A DNA stretch of 64,000 nt from Burkholderiaceae bacterium (GTDB taxonomy: Bacteria; Pseudomonadota; Gammaproteobacteria; Burkholderiales; Burkholderiaceae_D): positions 124,001 through 188,000 of the forward strand of contig SCTK01000014.1 in NCBI GenBank assembly GCA_004298905.1, written 5' to 3'. Made by a program: the position numbers and the translations under genes. Below the pieces are notes generated by a model, which saw only the letters and a list, made by a program, of their open reading frames with translations, did no database searches and was not told where the DNA came from. Positions 45,694 to 61,617 of this stretch are shown here, piece by piece (position 1 is the stretch's first letter; each line of letters begins with the position of its first letter).

Positions 45694-46254
45694 TCAAGAT
45701 GGCTTCTGCCATAGTCGGTTGCGGGCTGCATAAACTTTTGCGGCAGCGGCGCGGCCTTCGAACAGGTATTTGTCCTGTACGTCATATACCCATTCGTAAC
45801 CTGCTGCCAGAAAGGTTTTTTCTGATGCCAGGTTGTCTGCGTACATGCCTGCTTCTATCCAGCGCAGGTGCATGGTTTCGAGAGCCCATTGCGTCAGGAC
45901 ATTCACCGCACAACTCGCCATCCCTTTGTACCATGCGCGCCGGTCGAACAAGCAAACCCCGATGTGCGCCGAATGGTGGATGCGTTCAATCGCGTGCAGC
46001 CTGATTGTCCCACAGTGCTGGTCTTGGCCCGCCTGCCAGATGCCAAACAGGGCCGCATCCGGCGCCTCAATGTTTTGCCGGACGAATTGCATGACGCTTT
46101 CGGTGCTTTGAACCGATTGCCGAACACCGACAAGATATCGATTGACCTGGGGATCGTTCAGGCCGTCCACATAGCCGGCATGCACATCACCCGGTTTCAA
46201 CGGACGGATGGAGCCGCCTTCAAACTCCAGCGGGTTATCCAATGCGATCATCAT
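45694..46254 (-). CDS. GNAT acetyltransferase, possible PseH
   Basis: A 186-residue GNAT-fold enzyme: IRPLKPGDVHAGYVDGLNDP, IRLHAIERIHHSAHIGVCLF, an acetyl-CoA loop near RAWYKGMASCAVNVL and AGMYADNLASEKTFLAAGY. In a pseudaminic-acid cluster the expected GNAT is PseH, which N-acetylates the 4-amino sugar; here it directly follows PseI, with the start codon overlapping the pseI stop (ATGATGA). The assignment rests on context. Either of two adjacent ATGs (46254, 46251) may be the start. Confidence 0.8.
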   Translation of the reverse strand: MMIALDNPLEFEGGSIRPLKPGDVHAGYVDGLNDPQVNRYLVGVRQSVQSTESVMQFVRQNIEAPDAALFGIWQAGQDQHCGTIRLHAIERIHHSAHIGVCLFDRRAWYKGMASCAVNVLTQWALETMHLRWIEAGMYADNLASEKTFLAAGYEWVYDVQDKYLFEGRAAAAKVYAARNRLWQKPS

Positions 46255-47300
46255 GCGAGCAGATCCCACGAAACCGGAGTACCACGTGCCACAGCCTGCT
46301 TCAGCGTATGCCCCACCACATCGCCGAGCCACTTAGGAGCAAGACCGTCGCCAGGGCGCAGGGCGCGAATATCCTCGCGGGTGATTTGTGCGCCGACAGG
46401 CACGTCTCGCACAAAGAACAGCGAACGACGATAACGCTTGAACGAGGTCTCCACCTCGCCGTGCACGTAGCTTATTTTTCCGAGCGCGGCATGTGCCCTG
46501 CGCGTTTCTTCCACCAACGATTTCAGCTCCACCGGCTCCAGTGAAAAACTGGAATCGACGCCGCCATCGGCGCGGGCTAATGTGAAGTGTTTTTCGATCA
46601 CGGTAGCGCCCATTGCGGTAGCCGCGACCGGCACGCCAATGCCCATCGTGTGATCGGACAATCCGACCATGACGTCAAACGATTGCGCCAAGTGAGGCAG
46701 CGTCCGCAGGTTGATGGTATCGGGAGCGGCCGGATAGGCACTGGTGCATTTCAGCATGATCAAGTCCTTGCAGCCGGCTTCGCGCGCAGTGAAAACGCCT
46801 TCCGAGATTTCAGCCAGCGAGGCCATGCCGGTGGACATGATCAGCGGCTTGCCTGTCGCTACGCAACGGCGAATTAGTTCGAGATCGACTAGTTCATTTG
46901 AAGCGATTTTGTAAGCGGGCGCATTCAGGGATTCCAGCAAATCCACCGCAGTAGCATCAAAAGGCGAGCTGAATACAGTAATTCCGATTTGCCGGCCATG
47001 TTCGAACAGACGCGCATGCCATTCCCAGGGGGTCGCCGCCTTCGCGTATAAATCGAACAGGTGCTCGCCATCCCACGGATTCTTGCCGGTCACCCGAAAG
47101 CGGGGGTGATCGATCTCAAGCGTCATGGTCTCGGCGGTGTATGTCTGCAACTTGACCGCATCCGCTCCTGCGTCCCTGGCGGCATCGATGATGCGCAATG
47201 CCCGCTCCAGCGACCCGTTGTGGTTAGCGGACATCTCCGCAATAATATAAGGAGGATGACTCGATCCGATCAAGCGACCTGAGATGTTGATCTCTTTCAT
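46251..47300 (-). CDS. pseI: Pseudaminic acid synthase (NeuB family)
   Basis: A 349-residue synthase condensing the 6-deoxy-altrose intermediate with phosphoenolpyruvate to give the nine-carbon acid. The pattern fits PseI rather than sialic acid NeuB: YIIAEMSANHNGSLERAL, AVKLQTYTAETMTL, a TPWEWHARLFEHGR segment and STGMASLAEI. LKCTSAYPA, GLSDHTMGIGVPVAA and VIEKHFTL follow. A C-terminal SAF/antifreeze-like domain (DVPVGAQITREDIRALRPGDGL) is present. Its immediate neighbours are the GNAT downstream and the ATP-grasp gene upstream. Confidence 0.92.
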   Translation of the reverse strand: MKEINISGRLIGSSHPPYIIAEMSANHNGSLERALRIIDAARDAGADAVKLQTYTAETMTLEIDHPRFRVTGKNPWDGEHLFDLYAKAATPWEWHARLFEHGRQIGITVFSSPFDATAVDLLESLNAPAYKIASNELVDLELIRRCVATGKPLIMSTGMASLAEISEGVFTAREAGCKDLIMLKCTSAYPAAPDTINLRTLPHLAQSFDVMVGLSDHTMGIGVPVAATAMGATVIEKHFTLARADGGVDSSFSLEPVELKSLVEETRRAHAALGKISYVHGEVETSFKRYRRSLFFVRDVPVGAQITREDIRALRPGDGLAPKWLGDVVGHTLKQAVARGTPVSWDLLA

Positions 47301-47316: not shown

Positions 47317-48246
47317 TTAACTGATTACCGCCGCACCTTGGACCCGTACCATGATTTTCCCTGTTTCAATGACAGGGAAAGTAACGGACTTTCCCTCCGC
47401 CTCATCCAGCGCCCACAGTACGTCGGAAAAGCCAAGCTGATGCCGCATCAACGTGGTGGAAGAAAAACGCGGATTGATTTCAAATACACGCGGCCCGCTG
47501 TCCGTGATGCGCAACTGAACGTTCATGCTGCCTCGCAGGTCCAACCCATGGGCAATGGTTTCGCACATCACCACGGTCTGCGCGTCATTGATCACCTTGG
47601 CCCAGCCAGTGAAACCACCAACCAACCGACGCAGCATCTGCAGCGTCGCAACGCGTCCATCACACGTACGGTAAACGGCGCAAGTCACTTCCTGGTCGGG
47701 CGGATTCAGCAATTCCTGGAATATCGAATCCGGATGCCGCTTGACCACGTAGGCAGCCTCCTCCTCGTCCCTGACGATAAACACGGCGCGCGAACCGGAA
47801 CCAAGCCGGCTCTTCAGAATGCATGGGTAGGCATCCGGCATGCCGGCGCTAACCGGCATGGTCCACGGGCCGCGTATACCAATGCGCTCCAGCATCTCGG
47901 CTGTAGCCAACTTGTCGACACATTCCGACACGACTTCCTTGCCTGGGAAAATCCATTTGACCCCGGAAAATTTTTCAATGCGCGCACCTATTACACTCAG
48001 CTCCGGCTCCGTCATCGGGATCACGGTGTCGATTGACTCCATCGCAATCAGCCGCTGCAACGCAGCCACATATCCGGGATCGTTTGCCATGGGCAGCGTG
48101 AATTGCGTGTCGACAAACAGGCTACCGCCGTGCTGCTGATGAATATCGGCGCCCACCAGATGACAGGTCGGCCGGTTTTCTCGAACGATGGCCGCCACGC
48201 TTTGCGAGATGTCGCCACCAATGCCAGTAATCAGTATTCGCTTCAT
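47317..48246 (-). CDS. ATP-grasp ligase of a surface-sugar cluster
   Basis: A 309-residue ATP-grasp protein of the carbamoyl-phosphate-synthase-like type. It begins ILITGIGGDISQSVAAIVRE, then has CILKSRLGSGSRAVFIV (the grasp loop), ELLNPPDQEVTCAVY and the metal-binding VFEINPRFSS. Such enzymes join a carboxylate to an amine through an acyl phosphate. Between PseI and PseG genes it might attach an amino acid or other acyl group to a sugar amine; the substrate is not known. The start overlaps the phosphoesterase stop by ATGA. Confidence 0.85.
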   Translation of the reverse strand: MKRILITGIGGDISQSVAAIVRENRPTCHLVGADIHQQHGGSLFVDTQFTLPMANDPGYVAALQRLIAMESIDTVIPMTEPELSVIGARIEKFSGVKWIFPGKEVVSECVDKLATAEMLERIGIRGPWTMPVSAGMPDAYPCILKSRLGSGSRAVFIVRDEEEAAYVVKRHPDSIFQELLNPPDQEVTCAVYRTCDGRVATLQMLRRLVGGFTGWAKVINDAQTVVMCETIAHGLDLRGSMNVQLRITDSGPRVFEINPRFSSTTLMRHQLGFSDVLWALDEAEGKSVTFPVIETGKIMVRVQGAAVIS

Positions 48247-48941
48247 GTACGCTCGAGCACATTGCTTAGGTAAGGATGGTTCGGATGCCGCCGCCGAGCC
48301 TCTTCTGCCACAGCGCAGTGATCATAGGATTCACACCGCAAACTGACTGTGAGCGTCACGCTGTCGTACAACGCCCACTGCGCACCCGGAGTGCGATTCC
48401 GCGGCTGCCCTACCGAACCCGGATTCACGATCATGGTCGCGCCGATCTCGCGCACCATCGGGTAATGCGTGTGACCCAGAATCACCATATCGATACCGGG
48501 CGAAGCGCAACGGACAAGCAACGCCGCGTCGGCATCCGGATATACGTACTCGTTATTATCCCACGGCGTACCGTGGCACAGCAGCAGCCTGCGGCCATCG
48601 ATGGCGACTTGTGCCGGGTGGGGCAAGTTGCACAACATATCCAACTGTTCTTCCGCAAGACAGTCGAGTGCAATTCGCAGCCCGCTACCGTACTTCTTCT
48701 CGATTTCCGGAAGCAGCGCCGGATAACGTCGTGCCGCAGTCAGCATATCCTCGTGATTGCCGCGTACAATGTGACGGTCCCACGGTTCCAGCAGTTCCAG
48801 CACCTTGTCGGGTGCGAAATAGTAACCGACCAGATCCCCGGTCACAAGCAGGTGCTCTACCCCTTCCGTTTCCGCAACGGCCAGCACCGCCTGCAGCGCA
48901 AGCGCGTTGCCGTGTATGTCTCCGAGTAACCCGATCTTCAC
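48243..48941 (-). CDS. Calcineurin-like metallophosphoesterase
   Basis: A 232-residue phosphoesterase of the YfcE-like group: KIGLLGDIHGNALALQAVL, VTGDLVGY, VRGNHEDM, LLCHGTPW and LGHTHYPM supply the two-metal site; NPGSVGQPRNR is typical. It may remove a phosphate from a sugar or a side-product of the adjacent ATP-grasp reaction, an inference from the ATGA-coupled gene pair. A housekeeping nucleotidase role cannot be excluded. Confidence 0.88.
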   Translation of the reverse strand: MKIGLLGDIHGNALALQAVLAVAETEGVEHLLVTGDLVGYYFAPDKVLELLEPWDRHIVRGNHEDMLTAARRYPALLPEIEKKYGSGLRIALDCLAEEQLDMLCNLPHPAQVAIDGRRLLLCHGTPWDNNEYVYPDADAALLVRCASPGIDMVILGHTHYPMVREIGATMIVNPGSVGQPRNRTPGAQWALYDSVTLTVSLRCESYDHCAVAEEARRRHPNHPYLSNVLERT

Positions 48942-50738: not shown

Positions 50739-51800
50739 TTACCCTAGCAGGGCTGTTGCTACAGATCGTGTTCCAGTAGAAATCGTGCCCCCCATTAACG
50801 ACATTGCATTATCACCAATTGCCTTTAGTTTGTCTGGGCTGGCAATCATCGTCCGCATGGCTTCAACATATTCCTGCGCATTCAACTGGTGGGTCCACCC
50901 GAGGTAATTGATTGCCCCTTGTGACGCCACGCTGATCGTGGTCTTTTCCTGATTCGCCGCAAATAGGACAGTGAGCGTGGGCAATCCGAGTATGCAACGC
51001 TCCCACATCGCTGCGCCGCCGGCGCCAATTGCGAGGTCTGCCTCCGCAATCAGTTCTGCCATGTTGAGAACCTGGCAGTGATAATTCGCATTTGGCACAA
51101 GTCGGCACCGCTGTTCGATTTCGTTGCGGTACGGATTGGAGCCGCCTACCACCACATCCACGGCAATGTCGGATCTTTGCAGACGCTGGATTGCGTCCAG
51201 CGCAGTCATGGTCAGGTTCTCTGGATCACTACCGCCGAAAAAAATCAGGATTCGTCGAACTTGTCCATCGCGCTTTCGCAACCGCTCGCGCTGCTGGTTG
51301 AATTCCGGTCTCAACAGCACATATTCCGGACCCAACAACTTGCGGCATCCAAGCGGAACAAGGCCTTCGTAACGGCTTTCAAGGTTGGGGTAATAATTCT
51401 GGTCCAACAGCAAATCACAATCGTGCGTTCGATCGGCCAGATCGTCGATCACCATGATTCTGCCGGTGCATGCGCGCAGTGCCGACTCCCAGCGTCCATC
51501 CAGTTCGTAGTGATCGACGATGACCCAATCAGCGCGCTGGCCACCAGCCTTGATAAAAGCCGTGGTAGCAGCAGCATCGGCCCGCCAATCGAGGGGCACA
51601 TCATGACCGGCCTGGCCCGGCAGCCTGCCGATCGCGTAGCCCTTTTGTTCCAGCAATGCAAACAGATTACCGGGCAAATCACGGCAAACGAAGGTGATTG
51701 CACAGCCGCTTGACTTCATCTCATCGGCCAGCGTCAGGCAGCGCATCAGATGGCCGGTCCCTGTACTGACTGATGCATCGACCCGGATAAAAATGTTCAT
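50739..51800 (-). CDS. pseG: UDP-sugar hydrolase of pseudaminic acid synthesis
   Basis: A 353-residue GT-B fold hydrolase that releases UDP from the 2,4-diacetamido-altrose intermediate. The N-terminal FIRVDASVSTGTGHLMRCL is characteristic (GxGHxxRC), with DWVIVDHYELDGRWE. The C-terminal domain has ILIFFGGSDPENLTM and AIGAGGAAMWERCILGLPT. ATG 51800 is chosen; the frame stays open upstream but overlaps the aminotransferase gene. It is immediately downstream of the second sugar block (NeuB2, SpsF-like, class III aminotransferase). Confidence 0.92.
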   Translation of the reverse strand: MNIFIRVDASVSTGTGHLMRCLTLADEMKSSGCAITFVCRDLPGNLFALLEQKGYAIGRLPGQAGHDVPLDWRADAAATTAFIKAGGQRADWVIVDHYELDGRWESALRACTGRIMVIDDLADRTHDCDLLLDQNYYPNLESRYEGLVPLGCRKLLGPEYVLLRPEFNQQRERLRKRDGQVRRILIFFGGSDPENLTMTALDAIQRLQRSDIAVDVVVGGSNPYRNEIEQRCRLVPNANYHCQVLNMAELIAEADLAIGAGGAAMWERCILGLPTLTVLFAANQEKTTISVASQGAINYLGWTHQLNAQEYVEAMRTMIASPDKLKAIGDNAMSLMGGTISTGTRSVATALLG

Positions 51801-51855
51801 GATTGTGCTGAAACGCGACGCAACGTTTGTCGGATCCGGGGTTTCACCTGCTGCC

Positions 51856-53184
51856 TCAAATTTTCTTTCGGAATACCGGCTTCGCTGGACGACCAACCAA
51901 CAAGCCCGCACAACTGCCGATATCGATTGCGGCACGATAAACAGCGCAGGCCTGATCGAAGGCCGCCGCCATGTGATCCAATTCGGCTTGCTGATGCGAC
52001 CAGGTGGTATAAAACAAACCTTGGAACAACACACCGCGAGCAATCATTTCCTGCATCATGAGAGTGCGGTAGGCATCGTCCGGGATGCGCGCCGGGTTGC
52101 GGCATACCAGCGCAAGCAAGCAGGCGTAGCCGATCGGCTGCAGAAAATCGTTCAAGTCGTGGCGCTGGATGGCCTGCTCCAGTTTTTGCTTGAAGTCCGC
52201 CCCGCGTTGCCAGTTGCTCTCGATCATGTTGTACTTCTTGAATTCATGGATCGTGGCAATCATCGCCGCCAGCCCGATCGTTTCCGCGCCGTGGGTAGTG
52301 GAGATGAGGAACAGTTTGTCGTCGCCCTCGCGGCGAATCCCGCCCAGCTCCATGATGTCGGCGCGGCCGGTAAGCGCACAAGCCGAAAAGCCGTTGGCGA
52401 TCCCCTTGCCCCAAGTCGCAAGATCAGGCTTGACTCCGAAATAATCCTGCGCCCCCTTCAAGCTCCATTTGAAGCCGCTGATCATTTCGTCCAGAACGAA
52501 CACCACACCTCTGTCCTTGCACAGCGCCGCAACCTTGTGCAGGAAATTGTCGCGCGGTGGATCGAACTTGACCGGCTCCATGATCAGGCAGGCGATGTCA
52601 TGCTTGTCATCCGACAGCAGCGCCTCGACCGAGGCGTAGTCGTTGTAGCTGAAGGTGGCGGTCATGCTGCGCACGTCGTTCGGAATGCCGAAGTCAGTAG
52701 GGGTAGTGACGATAAACCAGTCGTCGTAGCTGAAAAAGTTATGCTCACGCGCGATGGCAACACGGTTCTTGCCAGTATAAGCCCGTGCCAGCTTGACGGC
52801 GGCGGTGGTAACCGTCGAGCCGTTCTTGGCAAACTTCACCATGTCGCCCGATTCCACCGTTTCCAGGAACAATCTTGCCGCGTCCAGCTCAATCAAGGCG
52901 GGACGTTGAAAATTAGTACCCTGAAAAGCAGCCTCGCTCACTGCTTGCGCCACCGGCTCGTAACCATGGCCGATACAGACCGAAGTCAAACCCATGCTGC
53001 AATCGATGAATTCATTTCCATCGAGATCCCACACATGAGCGCCTTTACCGTGTGTAATTGCAGCCGGCGCATTTACCGGAAATTGATCATCACCCTTGGA
53101 ATAGGTATGAGCCCCCCCCGGAATCAAATCGTGGATCTGCTCCGAAAATTCGCGGGAACGCGTGAAATTGATAATCTTGTTCAT
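51856..53184 (-). CDS. Class III PLP aminotransferase (glutamate-1-semialdehyde aminomutase-like)
   Basis: A 442-residue PLP enzyme of the GSA-aminomutase/class III family. IPGGAHTYSKGDDQFP opens it, KNGSTVTTAAVKLARAYTGK binds phosphate, VFVLDEMISGFKW carries the cofactor Asp, and TWGKGIANGF contains the Schiff-base Lys. Family members in glycan loci transaminate sugar or nonulosonate precursors. In a heme-independent position between NeuB2/SpsF-like and PseG genes a sugar role is favoured, but the substrate is unknown. ATG 53184 has a GGAA-type site; a start 3 codons upstream is possible. Confidence 0.88.
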   Translation of the reverse strand: MNKIINFTRSREFSEQIHDLIPGGAHTYSKGDDQFPVNAPAAITHGKGAHVWDLDGNEFIDCSMGLTSVCIGHGYEPVAQAVSEAAFQGTNFQRPALIELDAARLFLETVESGDMVKFAKNGSTVTTAAVKLARAYTGKNRVAIAREHNFFSYDDWFIVTTPTDFGIPNDVRSMTATFSYNDYASVEALLSDDKHDIACLIMEPVKFDPPRDNFLHKVAALCKDRGVVFVLDEMISGFKWSLKGAQDYFGVKPDLATWGKGIANGFSACALTGRADIMELGGIRREGDDKLFLISTTHGAETIGLAAMIATIHEFKKYNMIESNWQRGADFKQKLEQAIQRHDLNDFLQPIGYACLLALVCRNPARIPDDAYRTLMMQEMIARGVLFQGLFYTTWSHQQAELDHMAAAFDQACAVYRAAIDIGSCAGLLVGRPAKPVFRKKI

Positions 53185-53201
53185 GGCAGGCATTCCAGAA
53201 T

Positions 53202-53948
53202 TTAAAAAACATCCCACAGCGGCTCGGCCACCACGAACGGCGCCACGAGATCCTTCAGATCCGGCCGCGAATCGAGAAAGTCGACGATTTGTTTCACCGA
53301 AACCAGCGGCATGGAAGCACCATGGGCCTTGGTGATCTCGCGGGACAAAATCAGGTCTTCCGGGTAGTCGACAGTGACTCTCAAGTCCATCCGTTGCAAT
53401 TCCCGTGCCGGGACCACCACCTGCGTCTTGAATTCATGTGGATGCTTGCGCGGGTAGTTGGAACAAAATTCCGAGCGGTCGGCGGAAGTGCCGAGCGCGT
53501 GGGAACGTTCGAGCGATTCCTGTGAGTAGATCTCGAAACTGAGACCCTCCGGCAAGCGATCGGTAACGGTAATGTCATTGCCGCGCTCCACATGGTCGCG
53601 CCATGCGGTTTCGAGCAGATCATAGGCAAACCAGGGGCATTCGGTCGTCACCCGAAATACGTCGGTGGCCCGTCCCATCCTTCCGCACTGTACCAGTCGC
53701 ATCAATACATCTTGCGGATCTCCAAAGATGTAACTGACGCCATGTTTGTGCGCCACGTCCACGAAAGGCGTATTCGCGCTGCCCTCCGAAATACCCAGCA
53801 CGATCTCGTCGATTATCGAGAACTGCTTGATCGCAGCAATAATCTGGTCGAGGATCGTTACGCTGTCGTTCAGCATCTGCAGCGGCTTGCCGTACAGGCG
53901 CGACCCATTGTTGCGGCAAGCAAGTGCGGCGACCAGTCGGCGACTCAT
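53202..53948 (-). CDS. SpsF-like cytidylyltransferase
   Basis: A 248-residue nucleotidyltransferase: LVAALACRNNGSRLYGKPLQ is the NTP site, followed by GDPQDVLMRL and RVTTECPW, as in SpsF-type relatives of CMP-sugar synthetases. The C-terminal part RVTVDYPEDLILSREI is typical. It could activate a nonulosonic acid with CTP. No canonical PseF is seen, so this or the KdsB-like enzyme at 60871 may fill that role. ATGA overlap with the second NeuB-family gene suggests the two act on the same sugar. Confidence 0.82.
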   Translation of the reverse strand: MSRRLVAALACRNNGSRLYGKPLQMLNDSVTILDQIIAAIKQFSIIDEIVLGISEGSANTPFVDVAHKHGVSYIFGDPQDVLMRLVQCGRMGRATDVFRVTTECPWFAYDLLETAWRDHVERGNDITVTDRLPEGLSFEIYSQESLERSHALGTSADRSEFCSNYPRKHPHEFKTQVVVPARELQRMDLRVTVDYPEDLILSREITKAHGASMPLVSVKQIVDFLDSRPDLKDLVAPFVVAEPLWDVF

Positions 53949-54982
53949 ACAGCATCTCCAGTATCCGATAAATCAGCTTGCAGTAATGGTGTATTGGCAG
54001 CGATATCGCGCTTCAAGGTGGCGCCATAGGCTTTGGTCAAATCGGTCAGCGGGGTATCTGCTGCACTACGCTTGAGTACCAGATCGGCGGGCTCAATCCT
54101 TGTGCCTGTGGCAATTGCGCGCCCGCTTACCACATGGCGGCGAATCATTCCGCGATACCCCTGTTCCGCCGCACCCATGCCGAAGTCTGCTGTATCGCTA
54201 CATTCACCATAAGCTGCAGCGCAATCTCGCAAAATCGCAGAGAACTCGGCGAACCGGTCGGGATTGAGCGCAGCTTCATGATCCTCCATCTTCATGACTT
54301 CGCCCAAAGTGAGATGCTTCTCAAACACACGCGCACCCGCTCCCAACGCCGTTGCCGCCAGCGTCAAGCGCAATGAACTTTCAGGCGATGCGTGATCCGC
54401 AAAACCAATCGAGACATTCGGATTCCGCGTTGAAAGCAGCTCGGTCAATCTGCGCACACGCGCGATCTGATTCCCATCCGTAGGCGTTGGGTAGCCCTGA
54501 TATCCCAGTAAAACGACGACCTCCTTGCCGGCCAGCAGATTGATCGCTTGTTCAATTTCGGGCAAGAACGCGCCGCCTGCACCGAGCAACACTTTTGGCA
54601 CGGAAGTTTGGGCAATCTGGTTGAGAAGACTCACATTGGCTATGTCGGTACCATGAACCTTGAGCGCCTGGGCACCCACTCGCTCTGCCAAGGCTACACT
54701 CCGTGCGCCGAACACATCAAGATGCAACGCAATGCCCAACTGTTTAGCGTATTCAGCAAGACCCTGCCAGACCGCATCGGTCATTTCAAGAGAACGAAAC
54801 AGCTCGTAATACTTATAATCCGGCGTCGCCAACTCATCGGCATACACCAGCTGGAACTTGGCCGCATCGGCGCCGGCGGCAGCCGCCGCACGCACCAGCA
54901 AGCGTGCCTGCTCGGGCCGGCCCTCAAAGCCTTGCGCCAGTTCGGCGATGATTTCGATGTTGGGGCTGGTATCAGGTGTCAT
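53945..54982 (-). CDS. Second, divergent NeuB-family synthase (SpsE-like)
   Basis: A 345-residue PEP-condensing synthase. IIAELAQGFEGRPEQARLLV replaces the usual NHNG motif, AAKFQLVYADELATPDYKYY and GFADHASPESS follow, with VFEKHLTL and a C-terminal SAF domain (VVSGRAIATGTRIEPADLVL). It differs clearly from the PseI at 46251, so it probably makes another 2-keto sugar acid. ATG 54982 overlaps the aldo/keto reductase stop (ATGA); TTG 54994 is possible. Confidence 0.85.
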   Translation of the reverse strand: MTPDTSPNIEIIAELAQGFEGRPEQARLLVRAAAAAGADAAKFQLVYADELATPDYKYYELFRSLEMTDAVWQGLAEYAKQLGIALHLDVFGARSVALAERVGAQALKVHGTDIANVSLLNQIAQTSVPKVLLGAGGAFLPEIEQAINLLAGKEVVVLLGYQGYPTPTDGNQIARVRRLTELLSTRNPNVSIGFADHASPESSLRLTLAATALGAGARVFEKHLTLGEVMKMEDHEAALNPDRFAEFSAILRDCAAAYGECSDTADFGMGAAEQGYRGMIRRHVVSGRAIATGTRIEPADLVLKRSAADTPLTDLTKAYGATLKRDIAANTPLLQADLSDTGDAV

Positions 54983-55845
54983 TGCGTCTGCCAATTTGAT
55001 GGGTTTAATAATTGAACGTCTTCTGTCACCAGCGATTGCGGAACGGGCGCGATTTTCGTTTCGACCGCGCTCATGATTTCCTGCAACTGCTTCAAACTGT
55101 CGATGCCGACTACGACACGGTCAATTTCTGGTTGCGACATGGCGAATCCGAGACAAGCTTGCAATGGCGTCAATGCCTGCTCACTCAGCCAGCGATGCCA
55201 GTGATCCCAGAGCGGTTGCCATCGATTGAACATTGCGGGGCGCTTGGTCGCTTCCATTAATAACAGACCCTGCAAAAATATCGAGCGCACATGCACTTCA
55301 GTACCGGACTGATGCAGCCGCGCCAACCAGCCGGATGAGGCCAGTCGGCGGTCCAGAATGTTGAAGGGCGCCTGCACCAAATCACACCGGAAGCGCGAAC
55401 CGAGCGCATCCAACTCCTGCGGGTCGTAAATCGATACGCCGATCTTCTCTACGGCACCCTGTTCCTTGAGCGCGAGCAACGCACCATAGAGCACCTCCCC
55501 TTGCTTACCGAGCAATTGTTGCGAGCAATGCAGCAACAGTCCATGCAGTTTCGGAATCTTGAGTCGCATCAGTGAATCCATTACCGATTTCTGCGCCCAA
55601 GCGGCGACATCGGTACAAGCTTCCGGGATGGCTGGCAATTTGGAAACAACCTGCCACCGACCTACCCCGATTTCGCCCAGCCTCTGCTCGCTCTCGCCAT
55701 AAGCAATTGCTGTATCAAGGGTATCAAATCCCGCAATGAGCGCATCGCGCAAAATTGCCTCCGCCTCTGTACGACTGACTTGGCCGGTCTGGTTGGCTAC
55801 GCCATAGGGCAAGCCAAACTGAACGGTACCAAGCGCCAGTTTCAA
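54979..55845 (-). CDS. Aldo/keto reductase
   Basis: A 288-residue AKR: LALGTVQFGLPYGVAN, DTLDTAIAYGESEQRLGEIG with the catalytic Asp and Tyr, LHGLLLHCS and IGVSIYDPQELDA. AKRs of this type recur in nonulosonic-acid and O-antigen loci, but their reaction there is unsettled. Its start overlaps pseC by ATGA and its stop overlaps the second NeuB gene, placing it inside a continuous pathway operon. Confidence 0.88.
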   Translation of the reverse strand: MKLALGTVQFGLPYGVANQTGQVSRTEAEAILRDALIAGFDTLDTAIAYGESEQRLGEIGVGRWQVVSKLPAIPEACTDVAAWAQKSVMDSLMRLKIPKLHGLLLHCSQQLLGKQGEVLYGALLALKEQGAVEKIGVSIYDPQELDALGSRFRCDLVQAPFNILDRRLASSGWLARLHQSGTEVHVRSIFLQGLLLMEATKRPAMFNRWQPLWDHWHRWLSEQALTPLQACLGFAMSQPEIDRVVVGIDSLKQLQEIMSAVETKIAPVPQSLVTEDVQLLNPSNWQTQ

Positions 55846-57020
55846 GAGAGGAATTCCTTCAACACCGCGATTACATGATCCTGCTGCTGATCAGTGAGCT
55901 CGTAAAATAACGGAATGCTTAATGTTTGCCGATAGTAGGCCTGGGCATTCGGATAGTCGTCCGGATTGAAACCTCGACTACGATAATAGGGCTGCGCAGG
56001 CACCGGTATATAGTGAACCTGGCAGATAATTCCGCGCTGACGCAGTTCTTTCATCAAGGTGGCGCGGCTAATGCCCGCAGCAGAAAAATCAATGCGCACC
56101 GGATAGAGATGGTGCGCACTCGATTCGCGACCACTCATCTGCGCCGGTTGAATCAGTCTTGAATCTGCAAATGCCTGGTCGTAGCGCAATGCCAGTTGGC
56201 GACGCCGCGCAACAAACCGGTCAAGTTTGGCCAGTTGCGAAAGACCCAGCGCGCACTGAATATCGGTAATCCGATAATGGAAACCGAGCTCGAACATTTC
56301 GTAATACCAGGGGTTGGGAACGCCATCCGTCACTGCGTTCTCGGGATAATGGAAAATATCCTCACCCTTGTTGATCCCATGACTGCGCAAGCGCAGCAGT
56401 TTCCGATAGGTTTCCTCATCGTTGGTAGTAACCATCCCTCCCTCACCGGTGGTCAAGGATTTGACCGGATGAAAGGAAAAGATCGTCATCAACGAGTCGG
56501 CGCAACAGCCCACCCTTTGGCCGTTAGCATAGCGCGCGCCCAATGCGTGGGCAGCATCTTCGATCACTACAGCACCCGCCCGATCGGCGACCGATTTTAT
56601 GGCGGGCATGTCACAGCTCAGCCCCGCGTAATGCACTGGAATCACGGCTTTTACGTCGGGGTTTCGCGCCAGTGTTTCTGCCAACGCTGCGGGAGAAATG
56701 TTTGCGGTGGCAGGGTCCACATCGGCGAACACCGGCCGAGCGCCGACGTACAACGCTGCATTGGCGCTCGCCACAAAGGTAATCGGCGAAGTCACCAACG
56801 CCGACTTAGGGCCAACGCCAGCCGCCAAGGCTGCAATATGCAGGGCAGCGGTTCCGCTTGAAACCGCAACCGCATAACGAGCACCGACGTAGGCTGCCAC
56901 CGCTTGCTCGAATGCGGCAATCCTGGGACCTTGGGTCAGGGCACCGCTCCGCAAGCAGTCTACAACTGCCTGAATATCGGCTTCGTCGATGTGATGACGG
57001 CCATACGAAATCATTTCCAT
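55842..57020 (-). CDS. pseC: UDP-4-keto-6-deoxy-altrosamine aminotransferase
   Basis: A 392-residue DegT/DnrJ/EryC1 PLP aminotransferase that installs the 4-amino group in pseudaminic acid synthesis. It starts ISYGRHHIDEADIQAVVDCL, typical of PseC. SSGTAALHIAALAAG binds phosphate, VIEDAAHALGARY precedes the Schiff-base Lys in SFHPVKSLTTGEGG, and RSHGINKG follows. It lies two bases after pseB, the preceding enzyme. Confidence 0.94.
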   Translation of the reverse strand: MEMISYGRHHIDEADIQAVVDCLRSGALTQGPRIAAFEQAVAAYVGARYAVAVSSGTAALHIAALAAGVGPKSALVTSPITFVASANAALYVGARPVFADVDPATANISPAALAETLARNPDVKAVIPVHYAGLSCDMPAIKSVADRAGAVVIEDAAHALGARYANGQRVGCCADSLMTIFSFHPVKSLTTGEGGMVTTNDEETYRKLLRLRSHGINKGEDIFHYPENAVTDGVPNPWYYEMFELGFHYRITDIQCALGLSQLAKLDRFVARRRQLALRYDQAFADSRLIQPAQMSGRESSAHHLYPVRIDFSAAGISRATLMKELRQRGIICQVHYIPVPAQPYYRSRGFNPDDYPNAQAYYRQTLSIPLFYELTDQQQDHVIAVLKEFLS

Positions 57021-57022
57021 GG

Positions 57023-58027
57023 TCAGATTTTTCCTAACTTCTGACGATTATTTCCAATCCACTCCTGCAGGGCAGCAACAGTCATCCATTCCGGATTGTT
57101 GTCAGAGCTGTAAACAAACCCCTCGGGCACCTTCACACCATCCTTGATTCGCGCCGGATCCTCACACCAGCTGTTAATGGCAGGCAGTATCTTGTAATGG
57201 TCCGGATATTCATAGGTAGAGAATGAGTCTTCAGGGCTGATCATCTGTTCATGCAATTTCTCTCCCGGACGAATACCGATGATGTCATGTTCCGCAGTCG
57301 GCGCAACCGCCTTGGCAATATCGGTAATTCCCATGGAAGGAATCTTTTTGACGTAGATTTCACCACCTTCCATATCATCAAACGCATGCCAGACTAATTC
57401 AACCGCCTGCTCCAGTGAAATCATGAAGCGCGTCATCCTCACATCGGTAATAGGCAATCTGCCGCTATCTGCCAGCGAGGCGAAAAAAGGAATCACGGAT
57501 CCACGCGAGCCCATCACATTGCCATATCGCACAACCGAAAAACGGGTATCGTGAACACCGGAATAGGCATTGCTGGCCACGAACAATTTATCGGATGCCA
57601 GTTTGGATGCGCCGTACAGATTTGCCGGACTGCTGGCCTTGTCGGTGGATAGGGCGACGACACCTTTCACTTCTTGGTCAATACAGACATCGATCAGATT
57701 CATCGCACCATCGACATTCGTCTTGATGCATTCAAAGGGGTTGTACTCTGCGGTCGGCACAATTTTTGTGGCAGCCGCGTGGACTACATAATCAACCCGA
57801 TCCAGCGCGCGATGCAGCCGATCTTTGTCGCGTACATCACCGATAAAAAACCGTACGCGCTTGTCGTTCTGGAACAGCTTGGCCATTTCCCACTGCTTCA
57901 TTTCGTCGCGCGACAGAATGACCAGGCGGGAAGGGTTGTATCGAGCCAGCGTCATTGGCACGAATGCATGCCCAAAGGATCCCGTGCCTCCCGTGATGAG
58001 GATGGATTTTCCGGCCAATGTCGACAT
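57023..58027 (-). CDS. pseB: UDP-N-acetylglucosamine 4,6-dehydratase (inverting)
   Basis: A 334-residue soluble SDR doing the first step of pseudaminic acid synthesis. ILITGGTGSFGHAFVPMTL is the NADP site, SRDEMKQWEMAKLF is diagnostic of PseB/FlaA1 short forms, AAATKIVPTAEYNPFECIKT follows, and STDKASSPANLYGASKLASD holds the catalytic residues. It heads the pseB-pseC-AKR-NeuB2 run and differs from the membrane-bound WbpM type at 33886. Confidence 0.95.
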   Translation of the reverse strand: MSTLAGKSILITGGTGSFGHAFVPMTLARYNPSRLVILSRDEMKQWEMAKLFQNDKRVRFFIGDVRDKDRLHRALDRVDYVVHAAATKIVPTAEYNPFECIKTNVDGAMNLIDVCIDQEVKGVVALSTDKASSPANLYGASKLASDKLFVASNAYSGVHDTRFSVVRYGNVMGSRGSVIPFFASLADSGRLPITDVRMTRFMISLEQAVELVWHAFDDMEGGEIYVKKIPSMGITDIAKAVAPTAEHDIIGIRPGEKLHEQMISPEDSFSTYEYPDHYKILPAINSWCEDPARIKDGVKVPEGFVYSSDNNPEWMTVAALQEWIGNNRQKLGKI

Positions 58028-58044: not shown

Positions 58045-58962
58045 TTAGCAAATTGATTCCAGGAGCTGCGTACGCCGCCCCGCAGCTTCCTGAACGTGCA
58101 GACCACTTAAAAACTGAGGCACTGTCCCCAGCCCACGGCCAAGAATTTCCCGCGCCCGGCTATTATCCAATGACATGTCCAGCGGACGCTTGGCGAGCAA
58201 ATGCGCGTGTGCCAATTGATTCGGGCGAATCAACTCTGCCGGCAGGCTGAATTCTTTTGCCAACTGCAGGGCAAATTCATACTTGGACAGGCGCTCATCA
58301 CCAGTCAGATTAACCACCCCTGACACATCCTTATCAATCAATTCATGCGCCGCCAAAGCTAACGCATCGGCCAGAATTGGCGTGAAGTAAACATCATCGA
58401 ACAAACTCAGTGTCTTGCCTTCGCGCAAGTTGACAATCAGCCAATCGCTGAAAGACTGGCGCTGTCGATGGCCCCAGCCAAAGAAATTGGTGCGAACGGT
58501 CAGCGCATCGGCGTGAGCCGCCTGTACCCAGGACTCGGCCAGCGCTTTGGTACGACCGTATTCGTTCAATGGTTGCGGCGCTTCATCTTCGCGATAGAAA
58601 CCATGATCGCCCGCAAACAAATGGTCGGTGGAAATATGAATCAACCGAATATTTCTGCGTGCAGTGGCCATGGCCACATTGCGCGCGATCACCGCATTGA
58701 CCTGATGCGCACGTTCAGGATCTTTTTCACATTCGTCAACGCTGGTGAGTCCAGCGGTATGTACCACCAGATCGGGCAATAGCTGATCCAGGTGCTCGCC
58801 AAAACGTTGCGGGTCTTCCAGATCCAATCGATGTGAAGTGGTGCCAGGCAGACGCGCTGAGAGTTGATGCGTCCCGAGCACCACGTCCCAGTGATCCCGT
58901 ACTGCACAAGCCCAGTTGAGGGCCAGCAAACCACTACCCCCGGTAATCAGAATTCGTTTCAT
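58045..58962 (-). CDS. dTDP-4-dehydrorhamnose reductase-like SDR
   Basis: A 305-residue RmlD-type SDR: ILITGGSGLLALNWACAVRD, HTAGLTSVDECEKDPERAHQ, ISTDHLFAGDHGFY and YGRTKALAESW. No rmlA/B/C genes are in the window, so a dTDP-rhamnose role is doubtful; it may reduce a keto sugar or act in nonulosonate modification. It precedes pseB by 17 bases. Confidence 0.85.
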   Translation of the reverse strand: MKRILITGGSGLLALNWACAVRDHWDVVLGTHQLSARLPGTTSHRLDLEDPQRFGEHLDQLLPDLVVHTAGLTSVDECEKDPERAHQVNAVIARNVAMATARRNIRLIHISTDHLFAGDHGFYREDEAPQPLNEYGRTKALAESWVQAAHADALTVRTNFFGWGHRQRQSFSDWLIVNLREGKTLSLFDDVYFTPILADALALAAHELIDKDVSGVVNLTGDERLSKYEFALQLAKEFSLPAELIRPNQLAHAHLLAKRPLDMSLDNSRAREILGRGLGTVPQFLSGLHVQEAAGRRTQLLESIC

Positions 58963-58969
58963 GGCACAG

Positions 58970-60874
58970 TCAACAGGGCACGCCCGCCTCAGTCAGCAGC
59001 CGTCGCCACCTCGGCATGCCGGGATCGAGCCAGAAAAAATCCTCAATGACAGGACTATCGCTGCTGTGGGCAGTCATGGTGAGCGCTCTCGCGAATTCAT
59101 GCGCAGTGCTGACAAACTGCACGCTGCTATTACCCCGTAGCGGGCTGAAATTAAGGTCATTACCATCCAGGAAAATGATCACCGGCAATCCAGAGAGATA
59201 AGCGTCAAGACCGGCAGAAGTAGTGTTGCTTGCAAATGCAACATCAAATTCCTCAACCAGCTCAGCCAAAGGTTGATCGGTCAACTCAAGCCGCAATGCC
59301 GGGAAATCTGCTGCCGTGACTTTACATACCGGATGCGGCTTCAATGTGTACGCCATTGACGACCCCATGAACGACACCGCAGCCTCAATACATGCAAGCA
59401 TTTTAAACGTTTGTGCGACGGTGAAATCGCCCAGTATCAGCACCCTTCTTGACTGGCCCTGTATTGATCGGTTTGCCCCCGGCAGTCTGGACCTCAACTG
59501 CCTTGAGCGGCGGGTATCATCATTCAGATACTGAAAACGCAATGCTTCAACCTGGACCAGTTGATCGATGGGATAACCCGAATCAGCATAGGCGTCCCAT
59601 GCCATTTTGCCATTGACAGCCACCTTGTCAGGCAACGGGATCGCACCTGCCTGCCGCGACGTCAACGTGCGCGGATCGTTGCAATAACTAAGATGCCAGA
59701 AGCGAACCGTAGCGTGTGGCACAGCAATCAATGTACCGTGTCCGTGCGTACGCCAGGCATTGATGAACGCACGCTCCCAGCCCTGGTTCTCACAAAGATA
59801 AAGACCTAACTTCTGGTGTGGGAGACTTTTCATCGCAGCATTAAATAACTCAACCCACAACAGATTCATCATCGCAGTAGCGCCATAGAATGATGCGTGC
59901 CAATCCTCACGCAACAATGGCCACAGCGATGCCCTCGACCCCTTGGGGATGAAATGGCTACGCACCTGGCGCGCGTCCGGTGTTCCCCAGATCAACCGGA
60001 GCCAATGACTGAAGGCGCGATAAACCACGCCACCCGTCAAAAACATATCCAGCAAAGCGTGCGCGCCTTGCTGCTCCGGGTGCTTGTTGAACTGTTCCAC
60101 CCAGCTGCGCGCGCTCTGTAGATTGGGGATATCCGGACTATAGACAAAATGGTGCACAAAATTTGTCTGCACCCCATAGCTGTGAAGAAACTTTGGCAAT
60201 CCCTCCCATTGGCGGGAATGGAATGCCCCTACCCTTGCCTGCTCAGGTTTCAAATGAAAAAAGTACGAGAAAAAGAAAACGACGTTATTGCCCTGGAACC
60301 AATCAGGCATGGCACTCTTGCGGAGTGGCCAGCGTGTCAGCAAATATCGCGCCAAATAAATCAGCGCCTGCAAAGTACTTGGACAGCGCGCATAAAGAGC
60401 ACGCAAGACGGAGGTCTGTCGGACTTTTTTTTCGACTTGCCATTTGAACCTTATCCCCAGGCTTTTGCATAAGAACCGAATCGCTTCGGCCAGCCGCTTA
60501 TCCGCGCTTGCCAGAATAACGTCCGCAGGTCGCCGCTCAAGCAGCATTTCTTCGAGGGCCAGCAAGCGCAAGCAATCCAGAATTCTCGGTGACTTGAACG
60601 CACTCATTTCCGCCAGCAAGGACATCCACCAAAGACTCAAGCCATTGCCGATACCCAGATGCTCTACCAATCGCCGATTTTTGATCTGGGCTTCACCCAA
60701 TTCATGGATGAAACCAATATATTTCTGCCGCAGGCGATCACCATGGGCTTCGACATAGCGGAGCACCGAGTACATTGAATGCGCTTCGTCGTAACCATTC
60801 CAGCGATACACCGCACCCGCATGTGCGGGCGGCTCCGAAGCAGCATCCCAGATAATCGCTGGCGACAAGGTCAA
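58970..60874 (-). CDS. Large putative surface-carbohydrate transferase
   Basis: A protein of about 634 residues. I do not recognise a named family with certainty. The C-terminal third has the look of a GT-B donor domain: YTLKPHPVCKVTAADFPALR and VAFASNTTSAGLDAYLSGLP with VIIFLDGNDLN, like sialyl/Kdo-type transferases. The N-terminal half is helical, including LRYLVEAHGD-like and WWMSLLAEM segments. Start is inferred: TTG 60874 overlaps the KdsB-like stop, with GGGAG before it; TTG 60868 is also possible. It may transfer the nonulosonic acid made by its neighbours. Confidence 0.6.
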   Translation of the reverse strand: MTLSPAIIWDAASEPPAHAGAVYRWNGYDEAHSMYSVLRYVEAHGDRLRQKYIGFIHELGEAQIKNRRLVEHLGIGNGLSLWWMSLLAEMSAFKSPRILDCLRLLALEEMLLERRPADVILASADKRLAEAIRFLCKSLGIRFKWQVEKKVRQTSVLRALYARCPSTLQALIYLARYLLTRWPLRKSAMPDWFQGNNVVFFFSYFFHLKPEQARVGAFHSRQWEGLPKFLHSYGVQTNFVHHFVYSPDIPNLQSARSWVEQFNKHPEQQGAHALLDMFLTGGVVYRAFSHWLRLIWGTPDARQVRSHFIPKGSRASLWPLLREDWHASFYGATAMMNLLWVELFNAAMKSLPHQKLGLYLCENQGWERAFINAWRTHGHGTLIAVPHATVRFWHLSYCNDPRTLTSRQAGAIPLPDKVAVNGKMAWDAYADSGYPIDQLVQVEALRFQYLNDDTRRSRQLRSRLPGANRSIQGQSRRVLILGDFTVAQTFKMLACIEAAVSFMGSSMAYTLKPHPVCKVTAADFPALRLELTDQPLAELVEEFDVAFASNTTSAGLDAYLSGLPVIIFLDGNDLNFSPLRGNSSVQFVSTAHEFARALTMTAHSSDSPVIEDFFWLDPGMPRWRRLLTEAGVPC

Positions 60875-61617
60875 GCAGCTCCCGCCATGAGCTGTTCGAC
60901 TTTCGCCAAATCTGCAGGCGTATCTACAGCATTCGAGCTGTGTCGGGTCGGTACCATACGCACCTTCAATCCATGCTCCAGCACGCGCATCATGTCCACC
61001 GACTCGGCAATCTCCAGCGGCGTCGGCGCCATGCGGGTATATTCGAGCAGAAAATTGCGTCGGAATGGAATAATGCAAACCTGCTTGCCCATCGGCACCA
61101 CCGGCTCCTTGGCGCGAGTCGGTATTGGTTCGCGTGAGAAATAGAGCGCATTGCTCTGCAGATCGCAAACCACTTTAATGCAATTGCGATCCTCGAACTC
61201 TGCAGTAGATTCGATTTTCCCCAAGAGGTTGACGATCTGCAGCGAGGGATCAGCCAGCATGGGGTTGACCGCTTCGGAGATCATGTCAGGATGGGTCATC
61301 GGCTCATCACCCTGCACCATGACAACGATGTCATAGGTCACCCCATCTTCCTGCTCCAGAATTGCCAGTGCCTCGGCACAACGATCCGAGGCTCGTTCGT
61401 GGTGCCCCCCTGTCATGACGGCTCGGCCGCCAATACTTTCAATGTAATCAGCGATTTCTCGGTCACACGTCGCCACCGCTGTGACTGTCAACAAGGGGTT
61501 GCGGGCGACTCGGTCGTAGACATGTCCGATCATTGGCTTTCCCAGCAGTGGCGCCATCGGCTTTCCCGGGAAACGGCTGCTGCCCATGCGAGCCGGGATC
61601 AATGCAAGTATTTTCAT
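60871..61617 (-). CDS. KdsB-like CMP-sugar cytidylyltransferase
   Basis: A 248-residue cytidylyltransferase: LALIPARMGSSRFPGKPMA, VYDRVARNP, VVMVQGDEPMTHPDMI and YFSREPIPT place it near KdsB, which activates Kdo with CTP. Its location inside the nonulosonic-acid cluster rather than near waaA suggests that it activates another 2-keto acid; being the housekeeping KdsB is possible. It is coupled by ATGA to the epimerase gene upstream. Confidence 0.87.
   Translation of the reverse strand: MKILALIPARMGSSRFPGKPMAPLLGKPMIGHVYDRVARNPLLTVTAVATCDREIADYIESIGGRAVMTGGHHERASDRCAEALAILEQEDGVTYDIVVMVQGDEPMTHPDMISEAVNPMLADPSLQIVNLLGKIESTAEFEDRNCIKVVCDLQSNALYFSREPIPTRAKEPVVPMGKQVCIIPFRRNFLLEYTRMAPTPLEIAESVDMMRVLEHGLKVRMVPTRHSSNAVDTPADLAKVEQLMAGAA

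Follow-up and report, generated by a model that had tools for sequence, protein, structure and literature searches.

The window analysed here comprises 64,000 nucleotides of a Burkholderiaceae bacterium (GCA_004298905.1, contig SCTK01000014.1, positions 124,001 to 188,000) and carries a pseudaminic acid (Pse) locus. Equivalogs of PseB, PseC, PseG and PseI are encoded in one cluster and all four score above the curated cut-offs, which assigns the locus to the Pse pathway (Table 1). A sequence-only reading of the same DNA had already named these four genes and is borne out, except that PseI was placed within the interval that ends at PseG and in fact lies about 3.4 kb beyond it. Between PseC and PseG four further genes are found, encoding an aldo/keto reductase (AKR), a second NeuB-family protein (NeuB2), an SpsF-like protein and a class III aminotransferase (AT3); profile and fold matches confirm this content, and all of these genes are located on the minus strand.

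Table 1. Genes of the Pse locus, in window coordinates, with the evidence for each assignment.
Feature	Position	Strand	Evidence
KdsB paralog	60871..61617	-	PRK13368, 290 vs cut-off 255
RmlD-like SDR	58045..58962	-	PF04321, 172 bits; upstream of PseB
PseB, UDP-GlcNAc 4,6-dehydratase	57023..58027	-	TIGR03589, 519 bits vs cut-off 407.75
PseC aminotransferase	55842..57020	-	TIGR03588, 513 bits vs cut-off 423.5
AKR, aldo/keto reductase of the cassette	54979..55845	-	PF00248, 95 bits; recurs with SpsF/AT3 in Pse clusters
NeuB2, NeuB-fold protein of a distinct clade	53945..54994	-	PF03102, 124 bits; PF08666; tree, residue table, AF2 model
SpsF-type cytidylyltransferase (predicted)	53202..53948	-	AF2 model (pLDDT 91) and Foldseek
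AT3, class III (PRK06209-type) aminotransferase	51856..53217	-	NF004856/PRK06209, 574 bits vs cut-off 486
PseG, UDP-sugar hydrolase	50739..51800	-	TIGR03590, 306 bits vs cut-off 153.55
Calcineurin-like phosphoesterase	48243..48941	-	PF12850
ATP-grasp ligase-like protein	47317..48246	-	PF02655, PRK12767-like
PseI, canonical pseudaminic acid synthase	46251..47300	-	TIGR03586, 475 bits vs cut-off 340.25
GNAT acetyltransferase adjoining PseI	45694..46332	-	PF13302

PseB and PseC are separated by 2 nt. From PseC onwards the genes are coupled by overlaps, as had been noticed before, of 4 nt (PseC/AKR), 16 nt (AKR/NeuB2), 4 nt (NeuB2/SpsF) and 16 nt (SpsF/AT3), and a gap of 55 nt separates AT3 from PseG if the start of the latter is set at 51800 instead of 52043. 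The order PseC-AKR-NeuB2-SpsF-AT3-PseG is also present in two further genomes (L079 and L179), and because the identical order recurs there the arrangement is not due to chance. In L079 a relative of the RmlD-like SDR (48% identity) is located between PseB and PseC. The order phosphoesterase-ATP-grasp-PseI is common to the window and a Cytophagales locus (L081). An ABC transporter and sugar enzymes surround the module.

The window shares PseB, PseC, PseG and PseI with the CMP-Pse pathway of Helicobacter and Campylobacter (PseB-C-H-G-I-F), but it has neither PseF nor PseH above cut-off and carries the four added genes. That a canonical PseF is lacking, as had been claimed, holds genome-wide: no protein reaches the TIGR03584 cut-off of 205.7 bits, and the two only matches, with 46 and 31 bits, are the housekeeping KdsB and the KdsB paralog of the window (30.8 bits). 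The SpsF-like protein gives no match to this PseF model at E 0.001. For PseH the GNAT protein beside PseI was the sole acetyltransferase scored and obtained 19 bits against a cut-off of 93. A GNAT homologue also follows PseI in L079, and the protein is a candidate substitute for PseH.

By sequence the SpsF-like protein has no Pfam match. However, its predicted fold matches cytidylyltransferases in Foldseek (top hit 6oew, TM 0.84, E 4.8e-17, with CMP-Kdn and CMP-Kdo synthetases next), and this rules out the view that it is no cytidylyltransferase since Pfam is silent. On its structural model we assign it as a nucleotidyltransferase-fold cytidylyltransferase of the CMP-Kdo/CMP-nonulosonic acid synthetase type. 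The TGDCP stretch of most SpsF proteins reads TTECP in the window and TSESP in L079, a deviation that counts against the proposal made below.

CMP activation had been ascribed to either the SpsF-like or the KdsB-like protein. The former is supported by its cytidylyltransferase fold, its place in the gene order and its fusions to AT3 and, in L223, to NeuB2. The KdsB protein of the window is a second copy, as a housekeeping KdsB is encoded on contig C22 (TIGR00466 275 vs cut-off 155). It apparently lies outside the conserved module, because it did not turn up beside the module in the parts read of L079 and L179, the latter searched with the SpsF profile only, which does pick up the paralog of the window. 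The paralog remains an alternative activator and could serve another ulosonic acid here. As the missing PseF it was rejected, being of KdsB type, scoring far below the PseF cut-off and not recurring near the module in these two genomes.

The cassette is a recurrent unit of AT3 and SpsF beside Pse genes. PseB-PseC-AKR-SpsF-AT3 without NeuB2 was found in six of 18 loci around AT3 matches, and L074 has one extra ORF between AKR and SpsF. In a genome-wide AT3 scan the best 80 of 581 matches, which are no random sample, were inspected; here AT3 adjoins or is fused with SpsF beside PseB/C/G in 21 loci, as counted with AKR, SpsF and NeuB profiles that were built from the very loci later scored with them. 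Within these 21 loci from the best 80, AKR is present in 14, and SpsF and AT3 form one frame in seven. The count of 21 misses two AKR-bearing Pse loci, L126 with a PseF-like protein at the place of SpsF and L129 with SpsF 2.8 kb from AT3, as well as L121, where SpsF and AT3 form one frame and PseG is on the opposite strand. The sets of 18 and 80 loci overlap by three (L126 is L060, L139 is L067 and L149 is L069). AKR, SpsF and AT3 recur in Pse clusters with PseI as the sole NeuB seen. Three of the seven loci without AKR (L117, L123 and L147) carry an unrelated Gfo/Idh/MocA enzyme instead, and the legionaminic-type locus L224 has a Gfo/Idh protein between SpsF and AT3; such a replacement is consistent with an oxidation step that supplies AT3 with a ketone. 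Neither SpsF nor NeuB is present at 29 of the best 80 AT3 loci, so relatives of AT3 serve elsewhere too. The cassette does not depend on the lack of PseF, since PseF can occur together with the AKR/AT3 pair, as in Aeromonas, and a PseF-like protein (193 bits vs cut-off 206) lies between AKR and AT3 in the Magnetococcales locus L060.

In AT3 the lysine of the FGKG/WGKG stretch is invariant in all 13 rows of alignment A1. Its class III relatives in the PDB include sugar C-6' aminotransferases. Like AT3, the GenB/Neo-type C-6' aminotransferases of aminoglycosides belong to class III, and by their PDB names they act on sugar carbonyls, but the sequence similarity is distant (E 3e-26 at best). Aminotransferases of the GenB/Neo type show methyl-ketone activity.

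NeuB2 had been described as lacking the NHNG motif, and indeed GFEG is found at the place of NHNG in the PseI of the window. The protein has the NeuB TIM barrel and a SAF domain (PF03102, PF08666), and its AF2 model aligns to NeuB structures with Z 28-31, the closest solved fold being SpsE (1vli, VIA-align Z 31.4). Its equivalog scores are below the cut-offs (TIGR03569 147 vs 400 bits; TIGR03586 106 vs 340 bits). A FastTree phylogeny places NeuB2 in a rare clade, of which 13 members were found, with support 1.0, apart from 96 other NeuB that include PseI-like, LegI-like and short NeuB proteins; trees were midpoint-rooted, and L126, L139 and L149 were left out of this one. Smaller trees gave the clade supports of 0.986 (5 members), 0.999 (57 others, among which L126 and L149 were doubled with L060 and L069) and 0.996 (8 members). 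The tree with 96 others rules out that NeuB2 is merely a diverged PseI or LegI. As far as the open-access literature shows, the clade is undescribed. Eleven of the 13 members adjoin SpsF, including the fused L223, and 12 of the 13 genomes have a second NeuB, the 13th member being on a contig too short to tell.

In NeuB of N. meningitidis, PEP is surrounded by positions 110, 129, 131, 132, 182 and 184, as described in PMC7371886. The NeuB2 of the window keeps K129 alone and has D, H, G, G and Q at positions 110, 131, 132, 182 and 184, respectively. Position 110 is T or S in 92 of 93 other NeuB and in none of the 13 clade members. Position 182 is C, S, A or T in all 96 others and Gly throughout the clade (13/13), and position 184 is S, T, N, L or A in the 96 others, where Gln does not occur, and Gln in 13 of 13 clade members. 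Because the clade has changed these near-constant residues around PEP, NeuB2 is probably no ordinary second synthase. SpsE of Bacillus subtilis, which is required for legionaminic acid, is likewise a NeuB-fold protein with an SpsF partner (PMC7439481), but SpsE keeps N29, H30, T110, S132, S154, C182 and S213, all seven of which are changed in NeuB2.

Other residues are retained. E25, H215, E234, H236 and D247 are conserved in 13 of 13 clade members, and His215, His236 and Glu234 are the NeuB metal-site residues; in the window the metal-site residues are H201, E225 and H227. The window protein also retains Lys46 and Lys112, which correspond to K53 and K129 of N. meningitidis. Between the window and L079, NeuB2 is more conserved (66% identity) than PseI (56%) and SpsF (46%), and the mismatches of its gene are concentrated at third codon positions (30/18/61% by position). 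Both the retained residues and this conservation argue against the reading that NeuB2 is a paralogue which has lost catalysis and is retained as a scaffold for, or regulator of, SpsF or PseI. This reading is improbable, although the loss of PEP-site residues and the fusion or adjacency to SpsF would suit it.

It is also rather unlikely that two sugar acids are made, with PseI producing Pse for activation by either the KdsB paralog or SpsF, and NeuB2 acting as a PEP-dependent synthase for a second acid, which would be formed from a modified hexose delivered by AKR and AT3 and activated by SpsF. The NeuB and SAF domains, the NeuB fold, the two lysines and the metal site are consistent with this, as are a second cytidylyltransferase (the KdsB paralog) within the cluster and the pairing with SpsF, in one case fused, as spsE and spsF can be (PMC7439481); many Campylobacter strains are described to have three dedicated NeuB synthases (PMC7591256). 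However, positions 110, 182 and 184 are changed in the entire clade, and even K53 (4/13) and K129 (5/13) are lost in some members. The second acid, one of two options offered before, is thus disfavoured by the PEP residues and by the second NeuB in the same genomes. NeuB2 rather appears to be an accessory partner of SpsF with the NeuB fold, which has kept its metal site and some of its sugar site but not the PEP site.

The other option, a branch that modifies Pse, is favoured by the clusters in which AKR, SpsF and AT3 accompany PseI as the only NeuB seen, and by a described system. EpaA of Acinetobacter prophages, which has cytidylyltransferase and AKR domains, converts Pse together with EpaB into 8-epi-Pse as determined by NMR (PMC12053666). 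The window likewise combines an SpsF-like cytidylyltransferase with an AKR at a Pse locus, a likeness drawn from the published description, but here the two are separate genes accompanied by an aminotransferase and NeuB2, and no counterpart of EpaB was assigned. Furthermore, EpaAB epimerises Pse whereas the cassette is predicted to aminate. In Vibrio B9-25K2 an SpsF-AKR fusion follows PseC, with no NeuA in the account given in PMC7371886.

We propose, with somewhat less than even confidence, that the window encodes a PseF-less Pse locus with a sugar-remodelling cassette that leads to a CMP-activated triamino sugar. PseB, PseC, an acetyltransferase, PseG and PseI would make Pse, and the cassette would then act on the nine-carbon sugar. 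AKR would oxidise a secondary alcohol, most likely at C8, to a methyl ketone, AT3 would aminate this ketone and SpsF would activate the product with CMP in PseF's stead. The predicted product is CMP-activated 8-amino-8-deoxypseudaminic acid (5,7,8-triamino). Its extra amine may be a substrate for acylation by the GNAT protein or by the ATP-grasp protein, a possible acyl or aminoacyl ligase for an amino group. This series is favoured because the cassette recurs and EpaA remodels Pse at C8. C5 of the hexose, the later C8, is tied up in the ring as long as PseG and PseI have not acted, and therefore a change at C8 must come after PseG. AKR and AT3 could instead act on the six-carbon precursor or on another carbon such as C4 or C7, which we consider possible but doubtful: the position is deduced from gene families, no tested protein of such architecture other than EpaA was found, and class III aminotransferases take varied carbonyl compounds according to PDB names, but the SpsF-AKR fusion points to the stage of CMP activation.

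The most likely role of NeuB2 within the proposed C8 pathway is a step on the (oxidised) sugar that differs from the usual condensation with PEP. A more far-reaching and only tentative suggestion, which we hold to be less probable than the pathway itself, is that the clade represents a new NeuB-fold branch without PEP use, accompanied by an SpsF clade of its own and by an enzyme that forms a ketone (AKR, Gfo/Idh, radical SAM/SPASM or another NAD(P)-binding protein). It may remodel the nine-carbon sugar of the neighbouring canonical synthase, e.g., through a retro-aldol/aldol epimerisation at C4 that the metal assists, or through isomerisation of an oxidised intermediate ahead of amination by AT3, and would yield an undescribed triamino nonulosonic acid in pseudaminic- and legionaminic-type clusters. 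No relevant paper on a triamino ulosonic acid was found in the open-access literature, and the sugar is, as far as this literature shows, undescribed.

A related arrangement is reported for Aeromonas subgroups IA-IE, in which pseF lies between an 'alpha/keto reductase' gene and that of a class III aminotransferase (PMC7874193). As in the window, reductase, cytidylyltransferase and class III aminotransferase are located downstream of pseC, and before pseG in IA-IC, but the cytidylyltransferase is named pseF and the description of the islands in PMC7874193 apparently includes no NeuB2. The group I islands adjoin polar flagella genes; around the module of the window, the transporter and sugar enzymes were seen. 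The flagellin glycan of A. hydrophila AH-1 has a mass of 403 Da, and some fragments are one m/z unit off those of tri-acetylated Pse (PMC4691044). The odd mass implies an odd number of nitrogens, and the exchange of O for NH changes the mass by -0.984 (computed). An odd glycan mass can also stem from an acetamidino group. The formula ranked first by the authors, C19H32O9, contains no nitrogen (PMC4691044). For AH-3 (group II) a flagellin glycan of 376.14 Da is given. Single-sugar strains such as AH-1 are placed in group I or III, while most A. hydrophila are in IA or IIB, and AH-1 presumably carries AKR and AT3.

Hosts and phages recognise nonulosonic acids, which occur as decorations on flagella, capsules and O-antigens. 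If the proposal is true, a cassette for a third nitrogen would account for sugar masses that have lacked an explanation, and a new sugar would be expected in several phyla; the rebuilt PEP site of a NeuB-fold clade would mean that a textbook enzyme family includes a new activity. If annotated by its family name alone, the NeuB2 clade would be labelled sialic acid synthase. Phage records gave no match for SpsF, and viral contigs yielded 11 pattern matches for NeuB2 with no relative among them. The NeuB2 search of plasmids returned 42 records, with 22.9-30.9% identity among the 40 listed, which are annotated NeuB or PseI where named, and AT3 matched 1828 plasmid records.

The pseudaminic acid (Pse) genes of the window lie on the minus strand in the order RmlD-like, PseB, PseC, aldo/keto reductase (AKR), a second NeuB-fold protein (NeuB2), SpsF-type cytidylyltransferase (SpsF), class III (PRK06209-type) aminotransferase (AT3), PseG, methyltransferase, SDR, phosphoesterase, ATP-grasp, the canonical synthase PseI and GNAT. 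As the sequence-only reading had claimed, PseB, PseC, PseG and PseI are clear, all four scoring over the NCBIfam cut-offs. Neighbouring genes from PseB through AT3 have a 2 nt gap or overlaps of 4-16 nt; PseG starts 55 nt past AT3. That a canonical PseF is lacking was borne out by a genome-wide search, in which none scored over the cut-off. The GNAT adjoining PseI was scored and falls below the PseH cut-off. The genome (2.48 Mb, 26 contigs) holds two NeuB-family genes, both at the Pse locus, and two KdsB-type genes, a housekeeping copy on another contig and a paralog in the window. The latter and the aldolase, phosphatase and dehydrogenase genes farther upstream on the contig possibly form another keto-deoxy sugar route. 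For the two long glycan-locus proteins of the window no Pfam match was obtained at E 0.001.

Coordinates of the features discussed (L-numbers are loci fetched from other genomes, except L192, which lies on the contig of the window)
Feature	Locus	Position	Strand	Remark
NeuB2	window	53945-54994	-	
PseI	window	46251-47300	-	
KdsB paralog	window	60871-61617		
Long glycan-locus protein	window	58970-61168		732 aa
Long glycan-locus protein	window	44049-45635		528 aa
HpcH/HpaI-type aldolase, HAD phosphatase, D-2-hydroxyacid dehydrogenase	L192	1519-6381		same contig, farther upstream outside the window
Formyltransferase-like protein	L079	12478-13131		between PseG and PseI
B12-binding radical SAM enzyme	L117	6632-8140		between PseC and Gfo/Idh-SpsF-AT3 genes
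B12-binding radical SAM enzyme	L123	6603-8132		between PseC and Gfo/Idh-SpsF-AT3 genes
NeuB2 and CTP_transf_3 domain in one open frame	L223	6539-8299		beside NAD(P)-binding protein
Radical SAM/SPASM protein	L181	8486-9868		directly beside NeuB2
Radical SAM/SPASM protein	L222	7524-8525		directly beside NeuB2

The phylogeny proposed as a check was run and places NeuB2 in a distinct clade of 13 members (FastTree support 1.0, with 96 other NeuB proteins falling outside). In N. meningitidis NeuB, whose numbering is used here, the residues around PEP are those at 110, 129, 131, 132, 182 and 184 (PMC7371886). The residues of the 13 clade members were compared with those of the 96 others, of which 3 lack the part before position 181. 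Positions 53, 154 and 213, which also have active-site roles, were included. T/S110 occurs in 92/93 others and in none of the 13, K53 in 93/93 versus 9/13, K129 in 93/93 versus 8/13, S132 in 92/93 versus 6/13 and S154 in 90/93 versus 3/13. Position 182 is C/S/A/T and position 184 S/T/N/L/A in all 96 others, whereas all 13 clade members have Gly and Gln, respectively; Ser213 (95/96 others) is Ala in 11/13. E25, H215, E234, H236 and D247 are kept throughout the clade. In the window NeuB2, K46 and K112 (K53 and K129) are kept, and the changed positions read D93, H114, G115, G138, G164, Q166 and A199. Its AF2 model has a pLDDT of 79 and continues to align with SpsE and NeuB structures at Z 28-31. 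Taken together, clade residues and fold match indicate a preserved metal end and a largely rebuilt PEP end. Codon-position mismatches of 30/18/61% to L079, an Oxalobacteraceae MAG locus, indicate that NeuB2 is under constraint. We read NeuB2 as a NeuB-fold enzyme predicted to catalyze another reaction; the main rival reading is an unusual PEP-dependent synthase. Of the two different synthases claimed earlier, the two NeuB-family genes stood, but the second is probably not an ordinary synthase. Two or more NeuB genes per genome are ordinary, since three synthases are described for many Campylobacter strains (PMC7591256, excerpt); the unusual feature is the NeuB2 clade rather than the gene number. 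Gene content, gene order and the NeuB2 clade are tool results.

Tree-placed clade members were found in 4 of 369 (class), 4 of 398 (phylum) and 4 of 300 (order) genomes, which are lower bounds as strict cut-offs may miss weaker members; the own genome is counted in the phylum and order sets, and six class-search matches without locus were left unplaced. The full module PseC-AKR-NeuB2-SpsF-AT3-PseG recurs in L079 (identity 66% for NeuB2, 78% for AT3, 56% for PseI) and in another genome of the same order, L179. The formyltransferase-like protein of L079 suggests that an amino group may be N-formylated in this sister module. SpsF directly adjoins NeuB2 in 11/13 clade loci, once as a fusion (L223), and lies about 1-2 kb away in L180 and L222. 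In the SpsF tree the six NeuB2 loci included all fall in one group (support 0.918), which spans Pse and legionaminic-type clusters and also takes in L117 and L123; this suggests that NeuB2 and SpsF travel as a pair. Ten of the 13 members share their locus with a further NeuB, and for L179 and L226 one was found outside the locus; L153, the remaining member, sits on a contig of 4.4 kb. AT3 lies in the same gene run in 5/13 (window, L079, L179, L153, L224). NeuB2 is also accompanied by AKR, by Gfo/Idh (in L077 as a fusion with SpsF), by the NAD(P)-binding protein of L223, by the radical SAM/SPASM proteins of L181 and L222 and, in L153, by a GDP-mannose dehydratase-like protein; among the part of the ORFs scanned in L078, L180, L225 and L226 no neighbour of these kinds was identified. 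Some radical SAM/SPASM enzymes oxidise sugar alcohols, so that those of L181 and L222 would fit the ketone-forming place.

The cassette also occurs without NeuB2: PseB-PseC-AKR-SpsF-AT3 was found in 6/18 loci fetched around AT3 matches in other Pseudomonadota (L066, L067, L069, L071, L073, L074). In a scan for AT3 relatives with one genome per species, the best 80 of 581 matches were kept as loci and scored by profiles built in this analysis. Among these 80, 21 have AT3 adjoining or fused to SpsF plus PseB, PseC or PseG; 14 of the 21 also have AKR, and in seven SpsF and AT3 share a single open frame (MAGs labelled Flavobacterium, Cytophagales, Bacteroidetes, Manganitrophus, Magnetococcales, Rhodospirillaceae and Nitrospirae). 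SpsF or NeuB outside this arrangement, mostly in another operon type, occurs in 30/80. The other 29/80 lack both, and an AT3 relative by itself is therefore no sufficient sign of the cassette. No PseF over cut-off was present in the 10 cassette-related genomes checked. The top match reached 35-51 bits in G855, G066, G125, G267 and G084, and PseF-like proteins of 137-193 bits occur in G100, G160, G112, G096 and G116, that of G112 between AKR and AT3 within the cluster. Therefore, either SpsF or a PseF-like protein can occupy the cytidylyltransferase place. The three examined of the 7 AKR-less loci (L117, L123, L147) have a Gfo/Idh/MocA oxidoreductase, unrelated to AKR, near SpsF, and in L224, a legionaminic-type locus, Gfo/Idh lies between SpsF and AT3. 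The B12-binding radical SAM enzymes of L117 and L123 might C-methylate the sugar.

The exchange of AKR for Gfo/Idh, with the SpsF-AT3 pair retained, fits an oxidation giving a ketone for transamination. Going by protein names, aminoglycoside pathways employ class III aminotransferases at C-6' carbonyls; these enzymes also use methyl ketones, and a C8 ketone would be one because C8 has a methyl neighbour. EpaA of Acinetobacter prophages, a fused cytidylyltransferase and AKR domain, together with the SDR EpaB is described to convert Pse5Ac7Ac to its C8 epimer in capsule, by NMR (PMC12053666, excerpt), and an SpsF-AKR fusion after PseC in a Vibrio Pse cluster was proposed as NeuA replacement (PMC7371886, excerpt). 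The window and its relatives add a class III aminotransferase. From the fusions, the oxidoreductase replacement and EpaA we infer that the cassette would oxidise, aminate and activate. AKR would make a ketone at C8 of Pse and AT3 would transaminate it, with 8-amino-8-deoxy-Pse as favoured product; we are less sure of C8 as the site than of the cassette role.

Aeromonas flagellin offers an outside check. According to excerpted text, a reductase and a class III aminotransferase lie on either side of pseF in subgroups IA-IE, and subgroups IF and IG lack both (PMC7874193); A. hydrophila AH-1 carries a single flagellin sugar of 403 Da, with fragments m/z 342.4, 355.4 and 373.2 one unit off those of Pse5Ac7Ac9Ac and several others common (PMC4691044); for AH-3 (group II) 376.14 Da is given. 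The odd residue mass of the AH-1 sugar implies an odd nitrogen count, in which it differs from Pse. One arithmetic fit, an illustration and not an assignment, is a triamino core bearing two acetyl groups plus a glyceroyl (403.159). Against a triamino sugar, amidino groups give odd masses too and the authors' top-ranked formula, in the excerpt, has no nitrogen. Moreover, AKR and AT3 are only presumed in AH-1: going by partial text, a single-sugar strain belongs to group I or to group III, and A. hydrophila is mostly IA or IIB.

A second recurrent AT3 operon was found in Bacteroidota/Ignavibacteria-type MAGs. The proteins scanned in its representative L115 are a glycerophosphotransferase-like GT, SpsF, transketolase N and C halves, AT3, SDR, a KdsC/Kdn-9-phosphatase-like HAD and a short NeuB; gene spacing is alike in L111, L112, L120, L125, L127, L128, L131, L133, L140, L142, L146 and L157. 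By its gene content this operon looks like a putative undescribed ulosonic acid pathway fed by transketolase, and it resembles Shewanella sfmABCDE (short NeuB, TPP enzyme, SDR) as described in an excerpt of PMC3765264.
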